64,000 nucleotides of DNA from Lysinibacillus sp. FSL W8-0992 (GTDB lineage Bacteria > Bacillota > Bacilli > Bacillales_A > Planococcaceae). Below are positions 14,910-25,700 of the stretch, in pieces (the first letter of the stretch is position 1; each line of letters opens with the position of its first letter). The stretch is from assembly GCF_038008685.1 (NCBI RefSeq), contig NZ_JBBOZQ010000001.1:2480001-2544000 (forward strand), read 5' to 3'. Below the pieces are notes generated by a model. The model ran no database searches, was not told the DNA's origin, and saw nothing but the letters and a program-made list of their open reading frames with translations. The position numbers and the translations under genes are program-made.

Positions 14910-15803
14910 ATGTTACTTGGCTCACACGTTTCAATGAGCGGTAAAGAAATGCTGCTCGGCTCTAGTAAAGAAGCTCTTTCTTATGGTGCTAACACCTTTA
15001 TGATTTACACGGGTGCTCCACAAAACACGCGTCGAAAACCAATTGCAGATCTTAATATTATGAATGGTCTATTACACATGAAAGAGCATGGCATGACCAA
15101 TATTGTTGTGCACGCCCCATATATTATAAATATTGCAAACACTGAAAAACCTGAAACCTTCCGTCTTGGTGTAGATTTTCTACAATCAGAAATTGAGCGC
15201 ACTGCTGCATTGGAAGCAACACAAATTGTTTTACATCCTGGTGCACATGTGGGCGCAGGAGCAGATGCAGGTATTGCCAAAATTATTGAAGGTTTAAATG
15301 AAGTGCTTTCACAAGACTTTCCCGTACAAATTGCATTAGAAACAATGGCAGGTAAGGGAACAGAGTGTGGGCGTTCTTTCGATGAACTTGCAAAAATTAT
15401 TGATGGTGTTACACATAATGAACGACTTTCTGTATGCTTTGATACATGCCATACGCATGATGCTGGCTACAATATTGTCGAAGATTTTGATGGTGTGTTA
15501 AACGAGTTTGATAAGATTATTGGTGTGGATCGTATTAAGGTCCTTCATATAAATGATTCTAAAAATGTTCGTGGCGCAGGGAAAGACCGTCATGAAAATA
15601 TTGGCTTTGGGCATATCGGATTTGATGCTTTAAAATACGTAGTCCACCATCCTCAATTGATGGACGTGCCAAAAATATTAGAAACACCATTTGTTGCATT
15701 AAACAGTGATGCTAAATCAAAAACAGCACCTTATAAATATGAAATTGAGATGTTACGTAGTGGCGAATATAAACCTGAACTTATTGACGCCCTACGAGGA
15801 TAA
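14910..15803 (+). CDS. nfo: Endonuclease IV (AP endonuclease)
   Basis: Zinc-dependent apurinic/apyrimidinic endonuclease for base excision repair, TIM-barrel fold, 297 aa. Metal ligands can be placed at His68 (VVHAPY), His109 (LHPGAH), Glu144 (ALETMAG), Asp178 and His181 ([13 protein letters not shown]), His213 (LHINDSKN), Asp226 and His228 (KDRHENIG), and the Glu in ILETPF. AAGGAGG precedes the ATG by nine bases. It is cotranscribed with cshB and followed at once by a terminator. In B. subtilis nfo is partly under SigG control in the forespore; no such promoter was recognised here. Confidence 0.97.
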
Positions 15804-15807
15804 TCAA

Positions 15808-15857
15808 ACCGTAGACAAACGCAAAAAAATTTGTGTGTGTCTACGGTATTTTTTTTA
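15808..15857 (+). terminator. Terminator of cshB-nfo
   Basis: ACCGTAGACA pairs with TGTCTACGGT, with further pairing inside the loop, followed by a run of T. It starts five bases after the nfo stop. Confidence 0.9.
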
Positions 15858-16046
15858 GTAATGAAACATGGAAATAAGCACTTTCCACTTTGTAAGAGTC
15901 CAAATTCATCCGAAAAATATCTTGCAAAAACGAGACATATTCTTTGAATTGTTAAATATAGGAAGGTATTTGTTAATATTGTATTGTAAATTGATATGTT
16001 AAAATGAGACAATCTGAAAGACACAGCACTTTTAGAGGATGATCTT

Positions 16047-16484
16047 ATGAAAATTTCAATAGAAGAAATAAGCAAAGAACTGATAGAAGAAATACTTATC
16101 AGGTGCCATGAAGTAGATGAAGAAATACTTGAAATTGTTAATAAGCTGAAAACTGAAACCCCTCTTATACTCGGATATCAAAATGATGGCGTTCATCGAA
16201 TTAATGTTAGGGACATCTATTATTTCGAAGCAGTTGATGGAAAGGTTTTTAGTTACTGCAAGGATAACGTTTTTGAGGTAAAACATAAGCTATATGAATT
16301 AGAAGAGGTATGCAAAGAAGTTCATTGTTTTCGGGCATCCAAATCAACAATAGTAAACATAGCTAAAATTGCATCTATTCACCCGTCTATAAGTGGCCGA
16401 TTCGTAGCGGTACTTGATAATGGGGAACGTCTTGTTGTATCAAGGCAGTATGTGCCTGTCCTTAAAAAAATGCTAGGATTGTAA
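16047..16484 (+). CDS. LytTR-domain DNA-binding regulator
   Basis: 145-aa transcription regulator. Residues 1-45 form an acidic helical segment with no receiver domain, and about 50-145 form a LytTR domain, recognisable from DIYYFEAVDGKVFSY, FRASKSTIVN and SGRFVAVLDNGERLVVSRQY. Stand-alone LytTR proteins of this size are normally encoded with a small DUF3021 membrane protein, as here, which restrains or modulates them. The likely targets are the pair itself and perhaps a nearby transporter or envelope gene. GAGGATGATC precedes the ATG. Confidence 0.9.
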   Translation: MKISIEEISKELIEEILIRCHEVDEEILEIVNKLKTETPLILGYQNDGVHRINVRDIYYFEAVDGKVFSYCKDNVFEVKHKLYELEEVCKEVHCFRASKSTIVNIAKIASIHPSISGRFVAVLDNGERLVVSRQYVPVLKKMLGL

Positions 16485-16496
16485 TAGGAGGTTAAT

Positions 16497-16931
16497 ATGA
16501 AGTTTTTCGAAATTGTGCAAAAGATCGTTAAAGATTTCTTAATCATCTTCGCATCCATCATCATTATTATTACTATTTTACGGCAAATCTTTTATCCTGA
16601 ATTAGCGTTTGATTTAATATCAATCTATATTATTATGGCATTTTCATTTTTAAGTGCATTATTAGGATTAATGTTGTATCTAGCTCATGATATAAGCGAG
16701 ACAAAAATGCGTATAAGAATTGTTCTTCATTTTTTTACACTGGAACTATTATTAATTGCCCTCGCTTGTGGCTTGGATATTGTAAACAATGCAACAGAGG
16801 TCATTATTTTGGCACTACAAATTGCATTCATCTATATTTTAGTTCGTCTACTGTCATGGAATAATGATAAAAAAGAAGCCCAAAAAATCAACGAAAAACT
16901 AAAGACGTTTAAAAAAGACATTACCCAATAA
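16497..16931 (+). CDS. DUF3021 family membrane protein
   Basis: 144-aa protein with four predicted membrane helices (about residues 13-34, 40-65, 74-96 and 100-118) and a charged cytoplasmic tail. It starts 12 bases after the LytTR gene with AGGAGG in front, so the two form one operon. DUF3021 proteins are regular partners of LytTR regulators in Firmicutes. The function is thought to be regulatory and no catalytic motif is visible. Confidence 0.8.
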   Translation: MKFFEIVQKIVKDFLIIFASIIIIITILRQIFYPELAFDLISIYIIMAFSFLSALLGLMLYLAHDISETKMRIRIVLHFFTLELLLIALACGLDIVNNATEVIILALQIAFIYILVRLLSWNNDKKEAQKINEKLKTFKKDITQ

Positions 16932-16968
16932 AATAATAAATTAGCAGTTTTTCTACAAAAAATAGTTA

Positions 16969-16997
16969 GCGGTAAGCATATAGCTTACTGCTTTTTT
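16969..16997 (+). terminator. Terminator of the LytTR-DUF3021 operon
   Basis: GCGGTAAGC and GCTTACTGC form a 9-bp stem with one G-T pair and a 5-nt loop, followed by TTTTTT. Confidence 0.85.
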
Positions 16998-17105
16998 ACA
17001 TCTTATTTGCTTGTAGATACAACTTACTGTTTTTCTATATACTTCCCTTCATCGATTTCTTATGATGAGTTCATAAAAAATTAATCGGAAGAAGGGGTAA
17101 CGACT

Positions 17106-18407
17106 ATGGGGACTTTATTATTATTAATCATGTTGATTTTCGAGATTGCGTTTGCTATTTACTGTATGGTGACAAAGCAAAACCATAAAAAAATGAAGAA
17201 TTGGGTAAGGGTTGCTGTGTTCATTACTTTTGTAATGCTTCTCCTTTCATCGGTAATTGATTGGAATTTCAGCTGGGCGATGCTTACAATTGTACTTTTC
17301 ATTTTCGCAGTAATGGGAATGGGTTCTCTTTTGTATAACAAGAGAAATAGGCAATACAAAACTTCATCTATAATATGGAAAACTATTGTAACGATATTGG
17401 TACTGTGCATAGCAAGTGCACCTGCAATTGTTTTTCCTCAATATAAATCACCAAAAGTGACTGGCACATATCAAGTCGCAACAGCTACTTACACATATAA
17501 AGACCAAAATCGGATTGAGGAATTTACTGATAAGGGGGACAACCGATTTGTTAATGTGGAGTTTTGGTATCCAAAAAATGCCGATAAATCATATCCTCTC
17601 CTTGTATTCTCACATGGTGCAAACGGTATAAGATCAAGCAATACGTCTACCTATACTGAACTTGCAAGTCATGGATATGTAGTCGCTTCAATCGACCATC
17701 CGTACCATTCTTTTTATACTGTTTCAGATGATGGAACAAAGGTACTTATTGATAAAGGTTTTAACAGGGAAGTAAGTAATTCAAATAAAGAAGGCATATA
17801 CACGAAGGAAGAAGTTTATGGTCTTATTCAAAAATGGATGAAGCTTCGAACAGACGATATGAATTTTGTCATTGATACAATACGTTCAAAAACTAAAGGT
17901 GACAATGATCCCCTTTATCAAGCTATCGATATAGAGAAAATAGGTGTGTTTGGACATTCAATGGGGGGTGCTGCAAGTGTTTGGCTTGGCGGAGAACGTA
18001 AAGATGTTCAGGCAGTTGTCAATATCGATGCCCCATTCTTTAGTGAGCTAGTTTATAAGAAAGAGATTGATGATTTTGTGGCAAGAGGGGAAGACTATAC
18101 AACACCACTACTTAATATTTATTCGGACGATGTTTGGAAGCAACTCGACAGCAACTCGATTTATATAGCGAACAAACCTGCCAATATCCATTTTAAAGAT
18201 GCATATACAGTTCATTTTCAAGGAGCAAAACATTTAAGCTTAACTGATTTACCACTTTTCTCTCCTATACTTGCAAATATGTTGCAAGGCGGAAAAGCGG
18301 ACATTGATAAATATTACGCAATTGAAACTGAAAATGAACTCATTCTTAACTTTTTTGACTTTGAATTAAAAGGCATTGGCCACTTTACTCATGAAGACAC
18401 TTATTAA
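17106..18407 (+). CDS. Membrane-anchored alpha/beta hydrolase (PAF-acetylhydrolase-like)
   Basis: 433-aa protein with three or four N-terminal membrane helices (about residues 1-110) and a C-terminal hydrolase domain predicted outside the membrane. The hydrolase part has FSHGANG as oxyanion loop, ASIDHPYH, the nucleophile elbow GHSMGG and a late histidine in GAKHLSLTD, the pattern of platelet-activating-factor acetylhydrolase and dienelactone hydrolases. The substrate is probably an ester or lipid, not defined by sequence. The ribosome site is GGAAGAAGGGG. It has its own upstream gap after the LytTR terminator, so it is probably a separate unit. Confidence 0.8.
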   Translation: MGTLLLLIMLIFEIAFAIYCMVTKQNHKKMKNWVRVAVFITFVMLLLSSVIDWNFSWAMLTIVLFIFAVMGMGSLLYNKRNRQYKTSSIIWKTIVTILVLCIASAPAIVFPQYKSPKVTGTYQVATATYTYKDQNRIEEFTDKGDNRFVNVEFWYPKNADKSYPLLVFSHGANGIRSSNTSTYTELASHGYVVASIDHPYHSFYTVSDDGTKVLIDKGFNREVSNSNKEGIYTKEEVYGLIQKWMKLRTDDMNFVIDTIRSKTKGDNDPLYQAIDIEKIGVFGHSMGGAASVWLGGERKDVQAVVNIDAPFFSELVYKKEIDDFVARGEDYTTPLLNIYSDDVWKQLDSNSIYIANKPANIHFKDAYTVHFQGAKHLSLTDLPLFSPILANMLQGGKADIDKYYAIETENELILNFFDFELKGIGHFTHEDTY

Positions 18408-18432
18408 TATTTTATCGGTAGCATGCAGTAGG

Positions 18433-18458
18433 CGGAACTATTTCGGTCCTTAAACGTC
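18433..18458 (+). promoter_or_regulatory. ECF sigma (SigM-like) promoter upstream of amj
   Basis: CGGAAC at 18433-18438 and CGTC at 18455-18458 are separated by exactly 16 nt. This fits the TGAAAC-N16-CGTC pattern of Bacillus extracytoplasmic-function sigma factors with two mismatches in the -35. It lies 41 bases before the amj start. amj of B. subtilis is a known SigM target. Confidence 0.6.
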
Positions 18459-18499
18459 TACATGTGAAATAATTGGAAAGTTAAGAGTAGGTATAGAGA

Positions 18500-19315
18500 G
18501 TGGAAATTGTAACGGAAAAATTAATTATGATTGCTTTATTTATTCTCATCATTCATTCAATCGAAACCCTTGCGTATGCAGTCCGTTTATCAGGAGCACG
18601 TGTAAGGTTGCTAGCTTCAGCTTTATCGCTTTTTAATGTAATGGTAATGGTTTCGAGGCTAGCGAATATGATGCAACAACCATTTACAGGAAGTTTGGTG
18701 GATACAGCTCCTGCTGACAATGCGTTAGCCTATGTAGAAAACCAGTATCGCATTATTATTGGAGCGGCATCGATAGGAACTCTAATAGGGATATTATTAC
18801 TGCCAACGTTCGTAGCCATCTTTTCGCGAGGGATAATCCATTTGGCTGAGGAAAGAGGTTCGATCCCAGCTTTATTGAAAAAAGGATTTACGCTTGAATA
18901 TGTAAGACGTGGAATTAAACATATTCGTAAGCCAAGTTTTTCGTATTTAAAGGGAATTGGCTTACGAGATATTCCAGTAAAATTATTTGTCATTAACATT
19001 GTCATTACAGCGATTTATACGATTGGCGTTTTATCAGCTTTATATGCTGGGTTATTAGTACCCGAATTAAGTAACACTGCTGTCATGGCGTCTGGACTAA
19101 TCAATGGGATGGCGACGATTTTGTTAATTATTTTTATTGATCCTAAAATTTCAATACTTGCTGATGATGTGATCAACAAGCGGGGTAGCTATTTAGATTT
19201 AAAAAGAGCGTCTGTTATGATGATGACATCCAGATTTTTAGGAACGATTTTGGCGCAAGTTTTATTTATACCTGGGGCACATTATGTTGCTTGGTTTGCG
19301 AAGCTTATTACTTAA
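18500..19315 (+). CDS. amj: Alternate lipid II flippase Amj (YdaH family)
   Basis: Polytopic membrane protein, 271 aa, of the DUF2837/Amj family. In B. subtilis Amj flips lipid II for peptidoglycan synthesis when MurJ is missing or inhibited. It shows about six membrane helices and the family features SIETLAYAVRLSGARV at the N-terminus, FSRGIIHLAEE, GLRDIPVKLF and FIDPKISILADDV. It starts with GTG 18500 behind a weak ribosome site; TTG 18506 is an alternative. The ECF-type promoter upstream fits induction by envelope stress. Confidence 0.88.
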   Translation: MEIVTEKLIMIALFILIIHSIETLAYAVRLSGARVRLLASALSLFNVMVMVSRLANMMQQPFTGSLVDTAPADNALAYVENQYRIIIGAASIGTLIGILLLPTFVAIFSRGIIHLAEERGSIPALLKKGFTLEYVRRGIKHIRKPSFSYLKGIGLRDIPVKLFVINIVITAIYTIGVLSALYAGLLVPELSNTAVMASGLINGMATILLIIFIDPKISILADDVINKRGSYLDLKRASVMMMTSRFLGTILAQVLFIPGAHYVAWFAKLIT

Positions 19316-19385
19316 TTGCTAAGAAGGAATTCGCTTTTAAAACGAGAATTTAAATGAATAATGAATGGATAGGAAGGTGACTTTT

Positions 19386-19736
19386 ATGAATATAAAGGGC
19401 TTTGGAGGGATTTTTTGGAGAACTAAAGATTTAGAGGATATTAAACAATGGTACAGTAAAGTTCTAAATGTGGAAATGGAAGGTTGGAATGGTGCCATTA
19501 TTACACCACAAGCAGGCAATGAAACGATTTTTTCCTTCTTTACCGAGGATGATCGTTATTTTCCATTAGAACAACAAGTGATGTTAAACTTCCAAGTTGA
19601 AAATTTAGATGACAGTATTAAACATCTAGAGAAATTGGGTGTTCCTTTTGTAAAGGAAAAAGAGGTTAGTGAATTTGGAAATTTCATTTGGATTGAAGAT
19701 CCAGAGGGCAGACGAATTGAGCTATGGGAGAAGTAA
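19386..19736 (+). CDS. VOC (glyoxalase/bleomycin-resistance) superfamily protein
   Basis: 116-aa single vicinal-oxygen-chelate domain. It has the beta-alpha-beta-beta-beta pattern, with FWRTKDLEDIKQWYSKVL in the first module, QVMLNFQVENLDDSI at the second, and the usual ending FIWIEDPEGRRIELWE. Metal-binding residues are not all clear, so the protein may be an enzyme or a binding protein. GGAAGGTGA precedes ATG 19386; an in-frame ATG at 19365 lies before that site. It may follow amj without its own promoter. Confidence 0.85.
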   Translation: MNIKGFGGIFWRTKDLEDIKQWYSKVLNVEMEGWNGAIITPQAGNETIFSFFTEDDRYFPLEQQVMLNFQVENLDDSIKHLEKLGVPFVKEKEVSEFGNFIWIEDPEGRRIELWEK

Positions 19737-19790
19737 ACGAATAGAAATTCGTTAACAGGCAACATGGACATTTTTAAAAAATGAATTTTT

Positions 19791-19825
19791 AAGGCACATT
19801 TTCCACAAGAGGATGTGCCTTTTTC
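19791..19825 (+). terminator. Terminator after the VOC gene
   Basis: AAGGCACAT and ATGTGCCTT form a stem followed by TTTT. Confidence 0.85.
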
Positions 19826-19888
19826 ATGTCTTTAGAAGAACCCATTTTGCATTTTGTAAATTATAATTAACTTAATGCAATTTATATA

Positions 19889-19917
19889 TTGCAAAAAGCA
19901 ATGTTGTTTTATATAAT
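19889..19917 (+). promoter_or_regulatory. SigA-type promoter
   Basis: TTGCAA (19889-19894), a 17-nt spacer and TATAAT (19912-19917), 29 bases before the membrane-protein gene at 19947. This is one of the best housekeeping promoters in the window. Confidence 0.75.
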
Positions 19918-19946
19918 AAAATTAATAAAACGAATGGAGGCAAATT

Positions 19947-20450
19947 ATGGCTGCAAGACAGAAGAAGCAAGTTGATGAACGTGTGAAAAATTTACAAAAT
20001 AAAATATACAAAGAAGTTTATGTATTGATCATGATTGTATGTTCAATATCAATCTTAATTAAATTCTTTAAAATGGGTGTGTCCTTGGATAATGTAATAA
20101 CAGAGTGGTTGATTATATTTATATCATCTGTCTATTATTATGTTAGAACGGCTTATCTTGGCATATTGACTGATGAAATAGAGGTTCACGATAGTAATAG
20201 CAAAGTCAAATTAGGAACAAAAAATGTACTTTTTGGTGTTGCATTTGGTTTAGTTTTTGCAATTATTTTAGGACTTAACAGTGCTTTCAATTATGCAGAC
20301 AGCACACAACAAGCTATAGAATATTTCTTCGTTGTCTTTTTAGTATCTCTACTTATATATGTGCCATTTTTTGCAGGGTTTTTGGGATTATCGTATATGG
20401 CTGCTAAAAAGAAAAGTGATCAAGTCGTACAAAAAAATTTAGAAGATTAA
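19947..20450 (+). CDS. Small membrane protein paired with an HTH regulator (DUF6773-like)
   Basis: 167-aa protein with a basic N-terminus (MAARQKKQVDERVKN) and four predicted membrane helices near residues 25-47, 52-70, 91-110 and 125-150, plus a lysine-rich tail. Its architecture and its partnership with a short XRE regulator resemble DUF6773-type proteins. A good SigA promoter and GGAGGC precede it. The role is unknown. It could anchor or respond to the regulator encoded immediately downstream. Confidence 0.7.
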   Translation: MAARQKKQVDERVKNLQNKIYKEVYVLIMIVCSISILIKFFKMGVSLDNVITEWLIIFISSVYYYVRTAYLGILTDEIEVHDSNSKVKLGTKNVLFGVAFGLVFAIILGLNSAFNYADSTQQAIEYFFVVFLVSLLIYVPFFAGFLGLSYMAAKKKSDQVVQKNLED

Positions 20451-20465
20451 CAAGTGGTGATAAGC

Positions 20466-20660
20466 ATGAAAAATATCCGTTTAAAAATGGCTCGAATAGA
20501 ACATGATCTGTCACAAGAAGATTTAGCACAAAAAGTAGGGGTTACTCGACAAACTATCGGCTTAATTGAAGTAGGTAAATATAATCCGACATTAAACTTA
20601 TGTATTGCAATCTGTAAAACGTTAAATAAAACGTTGGATGAATTGTTTTGGGAAGAGTAA
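20466..20660 (+). CDS. Short XRE-family HTH regulator
   Basis: 64-aa protein that is almost only a helix-turn-helix (LSQEDLAQKVGVTRQTIGLIE) followed by the family ending CKTLNKTLDELFW. Such YvaO/Xre-like minimal repressors usually control their own operon. GGTGAT lies just before ATG 20466; an in-frame GTG at 20454 overlaps that region and is less likely. It follows the membrane-protein gene by 15 bases and ends at a strong terminator. Confidence 0.88.
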   Translation: MKNIRLKMARIEHDLSQEDLAQKVGVTRQTIGLIEVGKYNPTLNLCIAICKTLNKTLDELFWEE

Positions 20661-20666
20661 ATTAAA

Positions 20667-20705
20667 GAAAACCTCCATTTTGAACATTGTCAAAGTGGAG
20701 GTTTT
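20667..20705 (+). terminator. Terminator after the HTH gene
   Basis: AAAACCTCCA and TGGAGGTTTT form the stem, seven bases after the stop codon. Confidence 0.85.
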
Positions 20706-20761
20706 ACTATATTTGAGGGAAATCAAAAGTTAAAATTACTGCAATTGTGTTCAAACAAAAG

Positions 20762-20905
20762 ATAAATACTGCGGTTGATTTCCGCTACGGGCGAGCGCTT
20801 TCCGCGGGCACAACGTAAGTCGCAACCCTCGCTAACGCGCGGTTTGTTGCGTCTCACAATGCGTGCGTTCCCGCAGGAGTCGCCCTCCCTTCGCTCCAAT
20901 CAACT
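20762..20905. repeat. GC-rich dispersed repeat, copy A
   Basis: A 144-bp block, far richer in GC than its surroundings, running from ATAAATACTGCGGTTGATT to CTCCAATCAACT. The ends form a short inverted repeat (GTTGATT / AATCAAC). A near-identical copy lies 236 bp downstream without any indel. It has no credible reading frame. Related elements are common in Bacillaceae genomes, as far as I recall. Confidence 0.9.
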
Positions 20906-20997
20906 TATTAAAGTTAAAGCTTCAAAAGAATAAAAAATAGAAAGAAGTGTCGAGTTACTTTTCCATGCCTTTAAATAATTATCGCTTTTTAATAGAC

Positions 20998-21141
20998 ATA
21001 AATAGTGCGGTTGATTTCCGCTACGGGTGGGCGCTTTCCGCGGGCACACCGTAAGTCGCAACCCTCGCTAACGCGCGGTTTGTTGCGTCTCACAATGCGT
21101 GCGTTCCCGCAGGAGTCGCCCGTCCTCCGCTCCAATCAACT
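20998..21141. repeat. GC-rich dispersed repeat, copy B
   Basis: Second copy of the 144-bp element, same orientation as copy A, with fewer than ten substitutions that I can see. It ends 21 bases beyond the stop codon of the ABC ATPase gene, where it may form a structured transcript end. Between the copies lie 92 bp of ordinary AT-rich sequence. Apart from a terminator and the two repeats, 20661-21162 holds no gene. Confidence 0.9.
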
Positions 21142-21162
21142 GAATATGTTGGCAAAGAGAGG

Positions 21163-21801
21163 TCAGACGGGACTTTCTGTTAACACGCCTTCACGCAACC
21201 TAAATACTTGATCACATAATGATTCAATATCGATTTTATTATGTGAAGTTAATAATATGGTAGCACCTCGCTGTTTTTCAGCGTTAATAATGTTATAAAC
21301 ATTTTGGACAGAATCTTCGTCCAAAGCATTCATTGGCTCATCTAGTAAAATTAATTCTGGTGTTTCCATAATGCTTTGAGCAATTGCTAGTTTTTGTTTC
21401 ATGCCAAGAGAGTACGCTTTGACAGGCCGTTTATCTTCTGGGTCTAAACCTACTTTTGATATCGCAGCTTTTATCTCTTGGTCAGTAATTTGCTTACGTA
21501 TTGATGCTAAAAAATTCAAGTTGGAAAACCCTGAATAATGCTCTAAAAATCCTGGTTTTTCAAGAATAACACTTGCACTTTTAGGAAATGAAATATCTCG
21601 ATGTAACACATCCCCGAATAATTTTACGGTTCCGACACTCGGTTTTACTAAGCCACAAATAACGCGAAATAACATCGATTTCCCTGAACCGTTATGACCA
21701 ACAAAGCCATAAATTTTCCCTCGTTCTAGCTGAAAGTTTATATTTTGAAGCACAGTCCTTCCTTTAATCACCTTAGAAACGTTGGATACTTCAATTGACA
21801 T
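21163..21801 (-). CDS. ABC transporter ATP-binding protein
   Basis: 212-aa ATPase that powers the three membrane proteins encoded upstream. It has Walker A GHNGSGKS, Q-loop region SVILEKPGF, signature YSLGMKQKL, Walker B LILLDEPMNALD and H-loop TSHN. It resembles the BcrA/CcmA-like ATPases of ABC-2 exporters and self-immunity systems. It is the last gene of the operon, 12 bases after the third permease gene, and its ribosome site GGGAGGTTACG precedes the ATG. The substrate is unknown; the exported proteins at the operon head are candidates. Confidence 0.92.
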   Translation of the reverse strand: MSIEVSNVSKVIKGRTVLQNINFQLERGKIYGFVGHNGSGKSMLFRVICGLVKPSVGTVKLFGDVLHRDISFPKSASVILEKPGFLEHYSGFSNLNFLASIRKQITDQEIKAAISKVGLDPEDKRPVKAYSLGMKQKLAIAQSIMETPELILLDEPMNALDEDSVQNVYNIINAEKQRGATILLTSHNKIDIESLCDQVFRLREGVLTESPV

Positions 21802-21813
21802 ATCGTAACCTCC

Positions 21814-22512
21814 CTAGAAGTAATCTTTTTTTAATCCGAAGCGAACAATGAGTAGACACATCATACAAATTAATAGCCCTTCGATAAATAAAACAATAGC
21901 GACCATGTTTGCCTCGAAATTTCCCATTAGCCCATAATAGAAAGGAATATAAGGAGCGGATTGCTTAATACCCGCAAAAAATAGAATGATCAGTAGCACA
22001 GATGCAATTTTACCTGAAAACAATAATTCGATTATTTTCCAAAGCAAAGCATGACAGTACATATTGATACACAGAATCAATGCCTGTAGCACAATTAAGA
22101 TATCAAATTGTAGTGTCACGTGAGCTTTTAAAAAAAGGAAGAAGCTCATGAGATAAGTGATTGCGACATAGCATGCAGTGAATATAAGTAGAATTAGCAG
22201 CCGATTAAGCCAAAACCAGCTTTTTGTTGGATAGCGTAATAGCATATTGTATGAAAAAGAAGTGGAGCGAGGCTTCCAAATAATTTGAATTAAAAGCACA
22301 TAACCAAACCATAGCAAAGTCCAGTACATCCAAGTAAGTTCCTCCACTTGTCCCAAAAGGACAGTAAATGCTTGGCGCAATGTCATGCCATCAAAAAGTG
22401 ATGTCATATAGAGTAACAATAAAGTAGTACATAATGGGTAGACGATACAAATACAACAAATTTTAAGGGCATCTTCTCTCAGTAGTTTCCACTCTAACGA
22501 AAATGTTGTCAT
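21814..22512 (-). CDS. ABC-2-type membrane protein 3 of the exported-protein operon
   Basis: 232-aa integral membrane protein with about six helices and few charged residues outside the loops. No known permease motif was recognised. The start overlaps the previous gene by four bases (ATGA), showing translational coupling. With the two preceding membrane genes it should form the membrane part of one ABC transporter. The three permease sequences are not obviously alike, so this is not simple duplication. Confidence 0.75.
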   Translation of the reverse strand: MTTFSLEWKLLREDALKICCICIVYPLCTTLLLLYMTSLFDGMTLRQAFTVLLGQVEELTWMYWTLLWFGYVLLIQIIWKPRSTSFSYNMLLRYPTKSWFWLNRLLILLIFTACYVAITYLMSFFLFLKAHVTLQFDILIVLQALILCINMYCHALLWKIIELLFSGKIASVLLIILFFAGIKQSAPYIPFYYGLMGNFEANMVAIVLFIEGLLICMMCLLIVRFGLKKDYF

Positions 22513-23246
22513 GAATCATCATCTCGCACGTAAAAGTCTAGTTTATTGACTAAATAATGAATGGCATTGATTAACAATATCATAACGGCGACTAATATAA
22601 AGAATGTACTAATAGGTGACGTAAATTCACTTTTATAAAATAAAATAGGCACAATGTGTAGTGTGATTTTATCAACCATAAAAAGAGTCATGACTAAAAT
22701 CAAACTAATAAAATTATTTTTAAGTAGTTGTTGGAGCACTATGTATAGCAAACCACAAATAGCCGTAACACAATAAAACATATAGATAAAGTAAAGCAAT
22801 GAACCGTTTTCTTTAGGCTCAGGCACATATAATAATAGGGCACTGTAATTTGTGATATAGGGATAGAATAACCACTTCGCTAGCGATGTGCTCAACAAAC
22901 TACTTCCGAAAACAATAGCTGTAAAAAAGGCAGTCACCATAAAAATAAAGCAAATTTTATACGAAGCGAATTGCTGGCGGTGACGATACCTTCTAAGCAA
23001 TAGCCAATCATTGTCTTTAGATGAAAAAGGCGCTAATAATATTAAAAATAATAGTGTATAGTAATTTTCATAACGAGAGGCTAATATAAAGTCTTTCAGT
23101 GTATGCCATGTGGTTACTACTGACGTGATTGGGAATACTGCAATCAACTGTAGCAATATTATAAAAATGGCAACAATCCAAAAAAGCATCCTTTTAAAGC
23201 GAATATCCTGTAGACAATACGCGCAGTACTTATAATACATCTTCAT
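22509..23246 (-). CDS. ABC-2-type membrane protein 2 of the exported-protein operon
   Basis: 245-aa membrane protein with about six helices, starting MKMYYKYCAYCLQDI. It has an aromatic, hydrophobic composition and a conserved-looking PFSSKDNDWLLLRRYRHRQQ cytoplasmic loop between helices 2 and 3, as in the coupling region of ABC-2 permeases. The start lies inside the end of the previous gene (17-bp overlap), so translation is coupled. ATG 23240 is an alternative start. Function is inferred from context only. Confidence 0.72.
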   Translation of the reverse strand: MKMYYKYCAYCLQDIRFKRMLFWIVAIFIILLQLIAVFPITSVVTTWHTLKDFILASRYENYYTLLFLILLAPFSSKDNDWLLLRRYRHRQQFASYKICFIFMVTAFFTAIVFGSSLLSTSLAKWLFYPYITNYSALLLYVPEPKENGSLLYFIYMFYCVTAICGLLYIVLQQLLKNNFISLILVMTLFMVDKITLHIVPILFYKSEFTSPISTFFILVAVMILLINAIHYLVNKLDFYVRDDDS

Positions 23247-24123
23247 GTTTCTTCATCCCAATTAAGTAAATGACAAATGTAAGTAATATTTGCAACAGAA
23301 ATTCAGTAACCATAATGGAAATGGAGTTGTCTCCATGTATACCTTCCGGGGCTAAAAAGTAAAATGGAGCCCATTTTGGGTGATTGGCAGCTAAAAACCA
23401 AAGGCTAGTATAAATAATTTGCGGCATAAAAATTAATAAATAATAATTTTTAATAAACATAGATAGGGCTAGTCCTAGACAAACATACGCACTAGCAAAC
23501 AATCCTCCGATAATATAAAATACAGCAACATATGCATATGGAGACATGCTTAGTAAATCCGAAAAAAGAGGTTGAATATCGCCTTTAAAAACACTTATAG
23601 CATTATCTGGTATTGCCAAAGTTCCTTCTACAAACCCTTTATAAATATTGGCATAGGCTGTATAGTCCCAATGATTCGTAAATAGATTAACAAGCACTAT
23701 ACCAAGACATAGTGGCAGTATGAACATAAAAAAGGCAGTTAGAAAAGTAGTAGCAAACTTTGCAGTGTAATATTTTTGTCTATCCATGCGCATAAAAATA
23801 AAATGTTGATAGCCGCTTTTTCTTTCACGATAAATGGAATCCACGAGTGCAATTGAAATCAACAATGGATAAAGAAAATAATACAAATCAGATGGGAAAT
23901 TATTAGTAAAACCGAGCCATTGTTTATGCGGAGATACAAAATTGAGCACATCATCAACAATAGGTTTTTCATATCGTTGATTAAAAAGTCTCTCTGTTAA
24001 TAAATATTCTTCATTATGCTCTTTTACACCTATAAGCACAGCAATCACAACAACTAATAATAAGGCACAAATGCTAAGATAAAAGTTTTTATTTTTAAAC
24101 AGCTTTTTATATTCAATAAGCAT
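23230..24123 (-). CDS. ABC-2-type membrane protein 1 of the exported-protein operon
   Basis: 297-aa membrane protein. One N-terminal helix follows MLIEYKKLFKNKNFYLS; a long extracytoplasmic loop and about five further helices follow, the topology of ABC-2 permeases. The cytoplasmic segment YRERKSGYQHFIFMRMDRQK resembles the conserved region after helix 2 of that family. AGGAGG lies seven bases before ATG 24123; a longer reading to 24228 has no ribosome site and would nearly touch the preceding gene. The 111-bp gap before this start holds a small ATAGGG/CCCTAT hairpin that could reduce permease expression relative to the exported proteins. Confidence 0.8.
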   Translation of the reverse strand: MLIEYKKLFKNKNFYLSICALLLVVVIAVLIGVKEHNEEYLLTERLFNQRYEKPIVDDVLNFVSPHKQWLGFTNNFPSDLYYFLYPLLISIALVDSIYRERKSGYQHFIFMRMDRQKYYTAKFATTFLTAFFMFILPLCLGIVLVNLFTNHWDYTAYANIYKGFVEGTLAIPDNAISVFKGDIQPLFSDLLSMSPYAYVAVFYIIGGLFASAYVCLGLALSMFIKNYYLLIFMPQIIYTSLWFLAANHPKWAPFYFLAPEGIHGDNSISIMVTEFLLQILLTFVIYLIGMKKHEDVL

Positions 24124-24234
24124 TGATATCCTCCTATTCAAAGAATAGGGCCGTCCAGGATAGACCACCCTATCAATAATGCTGATAAAAGAATCACTAT
24201 CAATGTTGTTATATAATAAATTGTGCATGCTATA

Positions 24235-24627
24235 TTATCGTGTGTCTGGATAAAAACTTCCTGAAATACTTACTTCAAAAAGGGCAAATCTTGAATTTTC
24301 TGCTACAAGAGTTACATTGCCGCCAACAGCACTTTGATCTACTGTGAAGAGCCGTGTATCATTATCCGTTACTCTTGTAGTTGTTGGAGATACTTTTGCT
24401 CCTTTAGCATCCACAATCCACATATTTGCAGTGTAATTTTTATCAACTATAGCGTTTTCTACTTTTGATTGACTAGTATTGTCTTTTGTTCCGGTTGCTA
24501 AACTAATATCACCTGAAAATTTCGGCAGTTCCTTCGCATAGGTGATAGCACTCGTCCCTGCACTTGCTATACCTGAACTAACCAATAAACCTAAAGCACA
24601 AACTGTTGTTGCTAGTCTTTTCTTCAT
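24235..24627 (-). CDS. Small exported protein, second tandem copy (DUF2712-like)
   Basis: 130-aa protein with a clear Sec signal peptide (MKKRLATTVCALGLLVSSG, cleavage near ASA-G) and a mature part of about 105 residues with no cysteine. It contains LATGTKDNTSQSKVENAI, NMWIVDAKG, TDNDTRLFTVD, SAVGGNVTLVAEN and the ending SGSFYPDTR. It is closely related to the protein encoded just upstream. The beta-rich pattern resembles DUF2712-type secreted proteins, which I recall beside ABC transporter genes. A bacteriocin-like or surface role is possible; none is proven. Its leader is also duplicated. Confidence 0.8.
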   Translation of the reverse strand: MKKRLATTVCALGLLVSSGIASAGTSAITYAKELPKFSGDISLATGTKDNTSQSKVENAIVDKNYTANMWIVDAKGAKVSPTTTRVTDNDTRLFTVDQSAVGGNVTLVAENSRFALFEVSISGSFYPDTR

Positions 24628-24698
24628 AAAAAACCAACTCCTTCATTGAATTTTGCTGAAAATAAACTGAAAGCAACACAACAACATTGCAACAAAAA
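24628..24698 (-). repeat. Duplicated leader of the exported-protein genes, copy 2
   Basis: The 71 bases before the second exported-protein gene align without gaps to those before the first, with about 55 identities by eye. The conserved blocks are TTGTTGC, TGTTGCTTT, GTTTATT and GAAGGAGTTG. Conservation outside the coding region suggests a shared promoter-proximal or RNA control element, or a recent duplication. Confidence 0.7.
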
Positions 24699-24757
24699 GA
24701 TTATCTTTATGGAAATTCGATAGGACAACCATCTATCTATACTTACATTCATTTATT

Positions 24758-25150
24758 TTATTTTGTATCTGGATAAAATCTCCCGGAAACTTCCACACTT
24801 ACACGTGTTATTTTATCATTTTCTGCTACAAGAGTTACATTGCCGCCGACTGCACTATCATCTACTGTAAAGAACCGTGTATCATTATCAGTTACATCTT
24901 TTGCAGTATTAGAAACCTTTTTCCCACTAGCATCCACAATCCACATAGTTGCCTCGTAATTTTGACCGACTATAGAGTTTTCAACTTTTGAGTCACTGTT
25001 ATTGTCTTTTGTTCCGGTCGCTAAATATATGTTCCTTTTAAACCCAGGCAGTTCCTTCGCATAGGTTATAGCATCAGTACCTGCACTTGCTGCACCGGCA
25101 CTAACTAATAATCCTAAAGCACAAACTGTTGTTGCTAGTCTTTTCTTCAT
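24758..25150 (-). CDS. Small exported protein, first tandem copy (DUF2712-like)
   Basis: 130-aa paralogue of the next gene. The signal peptide and the blocks LATGTKDNNSDSKVEN, MWIVDASGKKVS, TDNDTRFFTVDDSAVGG and SGRFYPDTK are shared, while the segment after the signal and the strand near residue 112 differ. It heads a six-gene operon with three membrane proteins and an ATPase. AAGGAG lies about ten bases before the ATG. The two proteins may be co-secreted partners, or one may be the effector and the other a protective or variant form. The family name is tentative. Confidence 0.8.
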   Translation of the reverse strand: MKKRLATTVCALGLLVSAGAASAGTDAITYAKELPGFKRNIYLATGTKDNNSDSKVENSIVGQNYEATMWIVDASGKKVSNTAKDVTDNDTRFFTVDDSAVGGNVTLVAENDKITRVSVEVSGRFYPDTK

Positions 25151-25221
25151 GTCAATTCAACTCCTTCTTTGTATTTTGATGAGAATAAACCAAAAGCAAC
25201 AAAACAACGAAGCAACAATAA
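25151..25221 (-). repeat. Duplicated leader of the exported-protein genes, copy 1
   Basis: Counterpart of the element before the second gene. It carries the same spaced GTTGC/GTTGTT motifs and the same ribosome site. The 313-bp stretch 25151-25463 otherwise holds only AT-rich sequence and the terminator of the yqfT-like gene; the operon promoter is probably in 25222-25400 but was not resolved. Confidence 0.7.
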
Positions 25222-25418
25222 ACATAGACATAGAGAAAGAGTATTTCATCCTCTAATTATCAATTATTATAAAATTCCAAACTTTCTATTTTCAATATTT
25301 TTGTAAAGAAAAATCTACTTTAATTTACTAAAAAGTTCAAAAAAATTTTAAAATATAGGTAGATTTTGGAGGATGTTTGTCAATGTAAGGATAAGAGGAA
25401 ACAATTTTCACTATTACA

Positions 25419-25457
25419 TAAAAAAAAGCCCGAAAGTCAAAACTGACTTTCGGGCTT
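25419..25457 (-). terminator. Terminator of the yqfT-like gene
   Basis: AAGCCCGAAAGTCA and TGACTTTCGGGCTT form a perfect 14-bp stem with a 4-nt loop. Read on the minus strand it is followed by a U run. It lies seven bases after the stop. Confidence 0.92.
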
Positions 25458-25463
25458 ACTATA

Positions 25464-25700
25464 TTATTTAGTAAATAGTGCAATAAGCTGGCGAGAACGT
25501 TTTCTTCCGAGAACGGCTTCCACTTCACTCAGTACTTCTTTTGGAATACCTAAAAAGAGCCAAGAAAATGAGAATTGCTCAAGATAAGGTCGAAGCTTTT
25601 TCACTTCTGACGTGCTAATTTCAAAACCTTCGGCACGCGCAATGGCAACTACTTCTTTATCAGTACTTTGAGATAATTGCTGTAAAAAATGAATACTCAC
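25464..25700 (-). CDS. Small YqfT-like (DUF2624) protein
   Basis: 78-aa soluble, helix-rich protein starting at GTG 25700, seven bases after AGGAGGG. It has EVVAIARAEGFEISTSEVKK followed by a hydrophobic helix and a basic segment GRKRSRQLIALF. The length and the helical pattern fit DUF2624 (YqfT), and its position between nfo and the zinc genes matches yqfT of B. subtilis, although here it is on the opposite strand. Function unknown. The DUF assignment is tentative. Confidence 0.6.
   Translation of the reverse strand: MSIHFLQQLSQSTDKEVVAIARAEGFEISTSEVKKLRPYLEQFSFSWLFLGIPKEVLSEVEAVLGRKRSRQLIALFTK

Follow-up and report, generated by a model that had tools for sequence, protein, structure and literature searches.

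Small Sec-secreted proteins encoded beside ABC (ATP-binding cassette) transporters are known from the lactococcin 972 family, in which, as described for the pneumococcal scbABC locus, an unmodified beta-structured protein is accompanied by an adjoining membrane protein and ABC ATPase, the functions of B and C being stated there as unverified (PMC11796350). A second described unit is the yybN operon of Bacillus subtilis (yybN, M, L, K, J), which is described as "of unknown function" and linked to Rok and DnaA, with horizontal acquisition proposed (PMC11841835; PMC2978689). In Table 1 of the latter, yybN figures among the units repressed by Rok, together with sbo-alb, sunA, sdp, and yyd, and a published listing enters YybJ2KL as a type V exporter, function unknown (PMC11466899). 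Here we compare with these systems a six-gene cassette from 64,000 nucleotides (nt) of Lysinibacillus sp. FSL W8-0992 (contig NZ_JBBOZQ010000001.1, positions 2,480,001 to 2,544,000; the whole stretch is hereafter the window). Running on the minus strand from 25150 down to 21163, the cassette encodes two exported proteins, a permease (P1), two further membrane proteins (P2 and P3), and an ATPase, in this order. Our tentative reading is that it encodes an antimicrobial protein, secreted and rich in beta structure, together with a transporter dedicated to protection from it.

Exported protein 1 (24758..25150) has 130 amino acids (aa), with a Sec signal peptide and a mature part of about 106 residues, and is a member of the exported-family profile. 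The signal peptide is predicted to be cleaved close to residue 23, between A and G. Exported protein 2 (24235..24627), likewise of 130 aa, is its tandem paralog: the two are 74% identical over 130 aa, with 92% identity in residues 1-24 and 70% in the remainder. Both mature parts are free of cysteine, and the family has only these two copies in its own genome. Then follow P1 (23230..24123, 297 aa), which is ABC-2 like and better conserved than the other permeases of the cassette; the fast-evolving P2 (22509..23246, 245 aa); P3 (21814..22512, 232 aa); and the ATPase (21163..21801, 212 aa). P1 and P2 overlap by 17 nt and P2 and P3 by 4 nt, and a gap of 12 nt separates P3 from the ATPase. A sequence-only reading of this DNA had described the same six open reading frames (ORFs), with two tandem exported proteins and three dissimilar membrane proteins. 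The dissimilarity is confirmed by a mutual hhalign probability of at most 7.9%, and the layout stands except for the start of P1: the most likely start is not 24228 (332 aa) but the ATG at 24123, directly after AGGAGG.

Only the ATPase could be named with confidence when the window proteins were compared with Pfam and NCBIfam. P1 matched PF12730 (ABC2_membrane_4) at E=3.2e-5 and 24.4 bits, under the cut-off of 27, P2 had no match in NCBIfam, and neither exported protein matched a Pfam or NCBIfam family above cut-off. Among 26 exported relatives, one is a DUF2712 protein in Pfam (1.7e-38), the other Pfam matches are weak (best 3.2e-4), and the single NCBIfam match is chance-like. With the exception of the DUF2712 branch, the members tested thus have no model in either collection, in keeping with the initial view of an undescribed system.

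The exported gene is closely tied to its transporter. We searched with a profile (A1) of 12 rows, all of them drawn from a sequence search made blind to neighboring genes. A search with the single window protein already gave matches in 9 of 121 relatives, at 12 places, each with P1 within 2.8 kb, and the profile, run against 398 Bacilli genomes, found 28 places distributed over 21 of them. A permease of the same family as P1 lies within 2.2 kb of 27 of these 28, and 25 have an ATPase of the same type (>220 bits) no more than 4.6 kb away, in counts made with P1 and ATPase profiles that include rows from these same loci. The ATPase exceptions are two loci at contig ends (L057 and L060) and a truncated exported gene with neither P1 nor ATPase (L071). 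The window ATPase alone, used as a phmmer query, found the neighboring ATPase at E 7e-50 or better in the listed intact loci; in its own genome it is the single outstanding one among 88 ABC matches, the second-best being at 1.2e-34, and since the databases differ in size the comparison of the two values is rough. The same gene set recurs in many Bacilli, and its arrangement is therefore not due to chance; the proposed association of exported and ABC genes proves to be a conserved unit. The sequence-only reading would have been refuted by a lack of co-occurrence in other genomes, and it withstood this check. Starting from the permease, a profile of P1 (A3) has matches in 64 of the 398 genomes, with 71 places at E <=1.4e-15. 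An ATPase accompanies 63 of the 68 that we inspected (in the remaining five the locus reaches a contig end or comes close to one), and an exported homolog lies within 3 kb of 31. The exported gene is thus practically never without the transporter, while the transporter is often without the exported gene.

The earlier pointer to DUF2712 proteins near ABC genes was apt. PF10916 (DUF2712) matches neither the window exported proteins nor any of the 121 relatives, own genome included, and it is rare, occurring in 2 of 398 Bacilli genomes and in 1 of 14 controls, namely B. subtilis. Profile A1 nevertheless matches the DUF2712 locus of genome G337 (5.7e-5, where PF10916 scores 2.6e-38), and full-length comparison of exported profiles with DUF2712 by hhalign gives 96.2% (A7) and 93.9% (A1). 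With signal peptides removed the probability is 77.0% and the score 32.6, while none of 60 column-shuffled decoys scored above 13.9. By profile comparison, DUF2712 is a distant branch of the window's secreted family. The layout is shared as well: yybN-type cassettes have, like the window, an exported gene, three membrane genes, and one ATPase in the same order, and P1 is distantly homologous to its counterpart in DUF2712-type cassettes (hhalign 95.6%). In the DUF2712 cassettes of two Priestia plasmids the order reads DUF2712, hypothetical or DUF2705 protein, WxPxxD, DUF2705, and ATPase. Unlike DUF2712 cassettes, the window has no match of P2 to WxPxxD (NF035952), which scores 277 bits in the DUF2712 cassette of locus L073, and, unlike several of them, it has no downstream protein with one transmembrane segment. 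We take YybN to be a DUF2712 protein; the analysis itself shows only the PF10916 match in B. subtilis. The yybN operon is probably a relative of the window cassette. The claim of an undescribed system is to be tempered: a probable relative has a name, though its function is given as unknown in print (PMC11841835). The yybN operon, as a Rok target, here gains a hypothesis that can be tested in a laboratory strain. A search of the open-licence literature for function papers on DUF2712, DUF2705, WxPxxD, PF10916, PF10920, NF035952, and yybNMLKJ found none.

Cassettes vary in composition. P1 is homologous across the cassette groups compared (hhalign 70%-98%). P3 aligns with residues 293-422 of a membrane protein of about 500 aa found in variant cassettes (hhalign 90.9%), apparently, to judge from the alignment, a fusion of P2 and P3; P2 itself is too divergent for a reliable connection between groups (hhalign at most 26%). 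Exported genes occur in tandem in the window and in L079, and are oriented opposite to the transporter genes in L079 and L089. Broken copies are found too, with the exported gene split in L063, P2 cut in L080, and the exported frame in two pieces in L133, and in L067 and L070 transposase-like ORFs lie between the exported gene and P1. Directly 3' of the ATPase, several cassettes encode an additional protein, about 200-240 aa long and with a single predicted transmembrane segment (L073:2587-3192, L087:8666-9301, L062:3176-3892), which has no Pfam match in the three scanned. In locus L056 (5128-7724), a truncated exported gene is followed by a protein that matches HNH weakly and under the cut-off, a SUKH-1 protein (3.7e-12), a full exported gene, and the transporter. 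Between two cassettes of G337 (L073:6706-9994) lie a polyprenyl synthase (1.1e-16), a histidine kinase, a LuxR-type regulator, and a 56-aa ORF without a family, whose layout resembles that of a ComQXPA quorum-sensing locus.

The cassette is mobile and accessory. Its site is empty of it in 18 of the 20 Lysinibacillus genomes checked, and in 16 of the 20 the 80-aa gene (at 25464 in the window) stands directly beside a gene like nfo (14910); the two genes are roughly 0.45 kb apart in G010 and roughly 1.3 kb apart in G013. G000 and G017 have the cassette between them, as do G020, G022, and G024, while G008 carries it at another address (L082), the site itself lacking it. A contig of L. mangiferihumi carries the same cassette. 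The neighbor names nfo and znu are our own presumption. Relatives are found on Priestia plasmids, among them a mobilizable one of 10 kb. Searches with the window protein gave no match in phages or in plasmids, the L056 protein none in plasmids, and viral contigs searched with three single proteins no confirmed relative. A "plasmid" match at L090 is a 2.9-Mb Listeria record, chromosome-sized, the label being the problem. The stretch that holds the cassette, 15803-25464, lies between two genes that are adjacent in most relatives, and the rest of it is variable cargo (a LytTR-like regulator, a hydrolase, a DUF6773 gene, and helix-turn-helix genes).

In the interpretation that we favor, itself slightly short of an even chance, the cassette would make one or two Sec-secreted, beta-rich, disulfide-free proteins, each with some 105 residues. 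That transcript, or one next to it, would also yield a dedicated ABC transporter with one ATPase and three membrane subunits (two in fusion variants). The exported protein would be an antimicrobial whose site of action is the surface of rival Gram-positive cells, and the transporter would protect the producer by removing the antimicrobial, or a complex formed by it, from the membrane, a logic that would resemble lactococcin 972 or LanFEG. The asymmetric linkage favors this pairing, since a toxin cannot persist without immunity whereas immunity can exist alone; so do the mobility of the cassette and the other units listed with yybN as repressed by Rok. We also count in its favor the fast evolution of the exported part, the presumed ComQXPA-like neighbors in G337, and the closeness of the ATPases to protection-type ATPases: among the NCBIfam models listed, TIGR03740 (lantibiotic protection) scores highest for the window ATPase, at 157.8 bits against a cut-off of 309.75, and it likewise leads for 10 further module ATPases (157.3-188.1 bits, all below cut-off). 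A role for the transporter in exporting the 130-aa proteins was rejected: both carry Sec-type signal peptides, so no ABC exporter is needed, which we count as a further point for the favored interpretation.

Membership in the lactococcin 972 or LanFEG family was not borne out. Even with E values as high as 1 allowed, neither Pfam nor NCBIfam has a lactococcin 972 model that matches the exported proteins, and the ATPase reaches 104.4 bits against a cut-off of 254.85 for the lactococcin 972 type (L_ocin_972_ABC, TIGR03608), so that the lactococcin 972 affiliation raised by the sequence-only reading falls. The likeness lies in a small Sec-type exported protein, presumably unmodified and beta-structured, beside a membrane protein and an ABC ATPase, the difference in the number of transporter genes, two in lactococcin 972 and four in the window. 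Lactococcin 972 itself blocks septum formation through lipid II. The LanFEG assignment fails at the TIGR03740 cut-off. The window shares with LanFEG that best model and a multi-permease ABC-2 layout, but has three permeases, and its partner is a protein with a signal peptide and not a modified peptide. Anti-phage defense was also discarded: PADLOC has no match for the exported proteins or permeases, and general matches only for the ATPase. If our interpretation is correct, then DUF2712, DUF2705-type permeases, and many unmodeled secreted proteins, here united in one recurring cassette, could belong to a large unrecognized Bacilli family of Sec-secreted beta-sheet antimicrobials with their own protection ABC transporters, carried on islands and plasmids. 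In this wider proposal, which is possible but somewhat doubtful, yybN would be the best-known member and the PadR-controlled, transporter-only loci would be orphan immunity. Such proteins would be unmodified antimicrobials with matched immunity, outside the families named by the Pfam and NCBIfam scans here.

Several observations weigh against an antimicrobial role. Actual secretion, the antimicrobial effect, the target, and the protective function are inferred throughout. The two structure models of the exported protein are beta-rich but poor (mean pLDDT, predicted local distance difference test, 55 and 65), and Foldseek with the first found no PDB match at E <=0.001; a PDB sequence search gave a best E of 0.2. 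A beta-rich fold, as far as such models indicate it, and tandem copies in the window and L079 would also suit a surface or matrix protein serving development, biofilm, or adhesion, with the transporter in assembly or quality control. We consider this quite unlikely, given the patchy occurrence (9 of 121 relatives), the plasmid copies, and inspected C-termini that by eye show no sortase or wall-anchoring motif. Nor is there positive selection, every ratio of nonsynonymous to synonymous substitution rates being below 1 (0.12-0.52 for the mature exported part, 0.14-0.24 for P1, 0.15-0.30 for P2, 0.11-0.61 for P3, and 0.05-0.11 for the ATPase); the pattern is relaxed, not positive. The cassettes of G020 and G022 are a mosaic, with identities of 97% for the ATPase, 94% for P3, 83% for P2, and 70% for the mature exported part, and divergence in P2 is not coupled to that of the exported allele (window and G024: exported 97%-98%, P2 78%). 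The leader between exported protein 2 and P1 (24124..24237, minus strand) has a hairpin directly before the P1 ribosome-binding site, which is not significant in the window (z -1.40) and is stronger in relatives; z is <=-2 in 21 of 30 leaders, and only 12 of the 30 rank within the top 5% when set against random windows from the same locus. Production of the exported protein in excess over the transporter by way of this hairpin is only suggestive.

Moreover, 37 of the 68 inspected P1 places have no detectable exported gene, and the transporter thus has an independent existence. Twelve of the 37 are family-f16 loci (L141-L143, L146-L149, L151, L167-L170), in all of which PadR and a 255-aa membrane protein, itself without a Pfam match, stand ahead of the transporter; some of the others hold small exported proteins too divergent to be counted (for example L140, E 0.0012, and L129, E 0.19). 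The family-f16 loci speak for a resistance module, in which the transporter would defend the cell from an envelope-active compound of foreign origin and the secreted helper would bind, extracellularly, either this compound or its target. In L079 the same PadR and 255-aa membrane protein pair is accompanied by a GntR gene and two exported genes, in L064 the ATPase has two-component genes next to it, and the resemblance to protection-type ATPases agrees with this model; indeed, the asymmetric linkage, the Sec signals without cysteine, and the TIGR03740 scores would likewise suit a secreted protein partnered with a resistance transporter. The exported protein, however, is unanchored for want of a cysteine, though helpers of transporters in Gram-positive bacteria usually are anchored, and the exported genes of L079 and L089 run opposite to the transporter. 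We regard a resistance module as unlikely, if somewhat less so than a surface or matrix protein.

The window cassette also adjoins an ABC locus that we presume to be of the zinc type, and a metal or nutrient system, in which the exported protein would scavenge or shield a ligand moved by the transporter, might be considered. A B. subtilis yybN deletion was reported to be moderately sensitive to the iron chelator dipyridyl (PMC6212828), which would suit a metal system and is not predicted by the antimicrobial interpretation. Against a ligand-handling role, the window mature parts lack cysteine and there is no anchored binding protein; a lipoprotein, or anchored binding protein of an ABC importer, is ruled out by the missing lipobox cysteine. 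The zinc-type locus is also present in cassette-free Lysinibacillus genomes, and its neighborhood is therefore incidental. We find this explanation improbable.

A promoter-like site, TTGAAA-18-TATAAT (25266..25295, minus strand), lies upstream of exported protein 1. It is the best of 32, agreeing at 11 of 12 positions, where shuffles lead one to expect 21.1 sites of all grades together; the TATAAT stretch recurs upstream in relatives, and the leaders of exported copies 1 and 2 look alike by eye. Directly downstream of the operon are two copies of a 126-bp repeat (20774-20899 and 21010-21135). This is an interspersed repeat family that often forms small clusters, with at least 49 matches in its own genome when only 40 of the 160 first-look candidates are scored.

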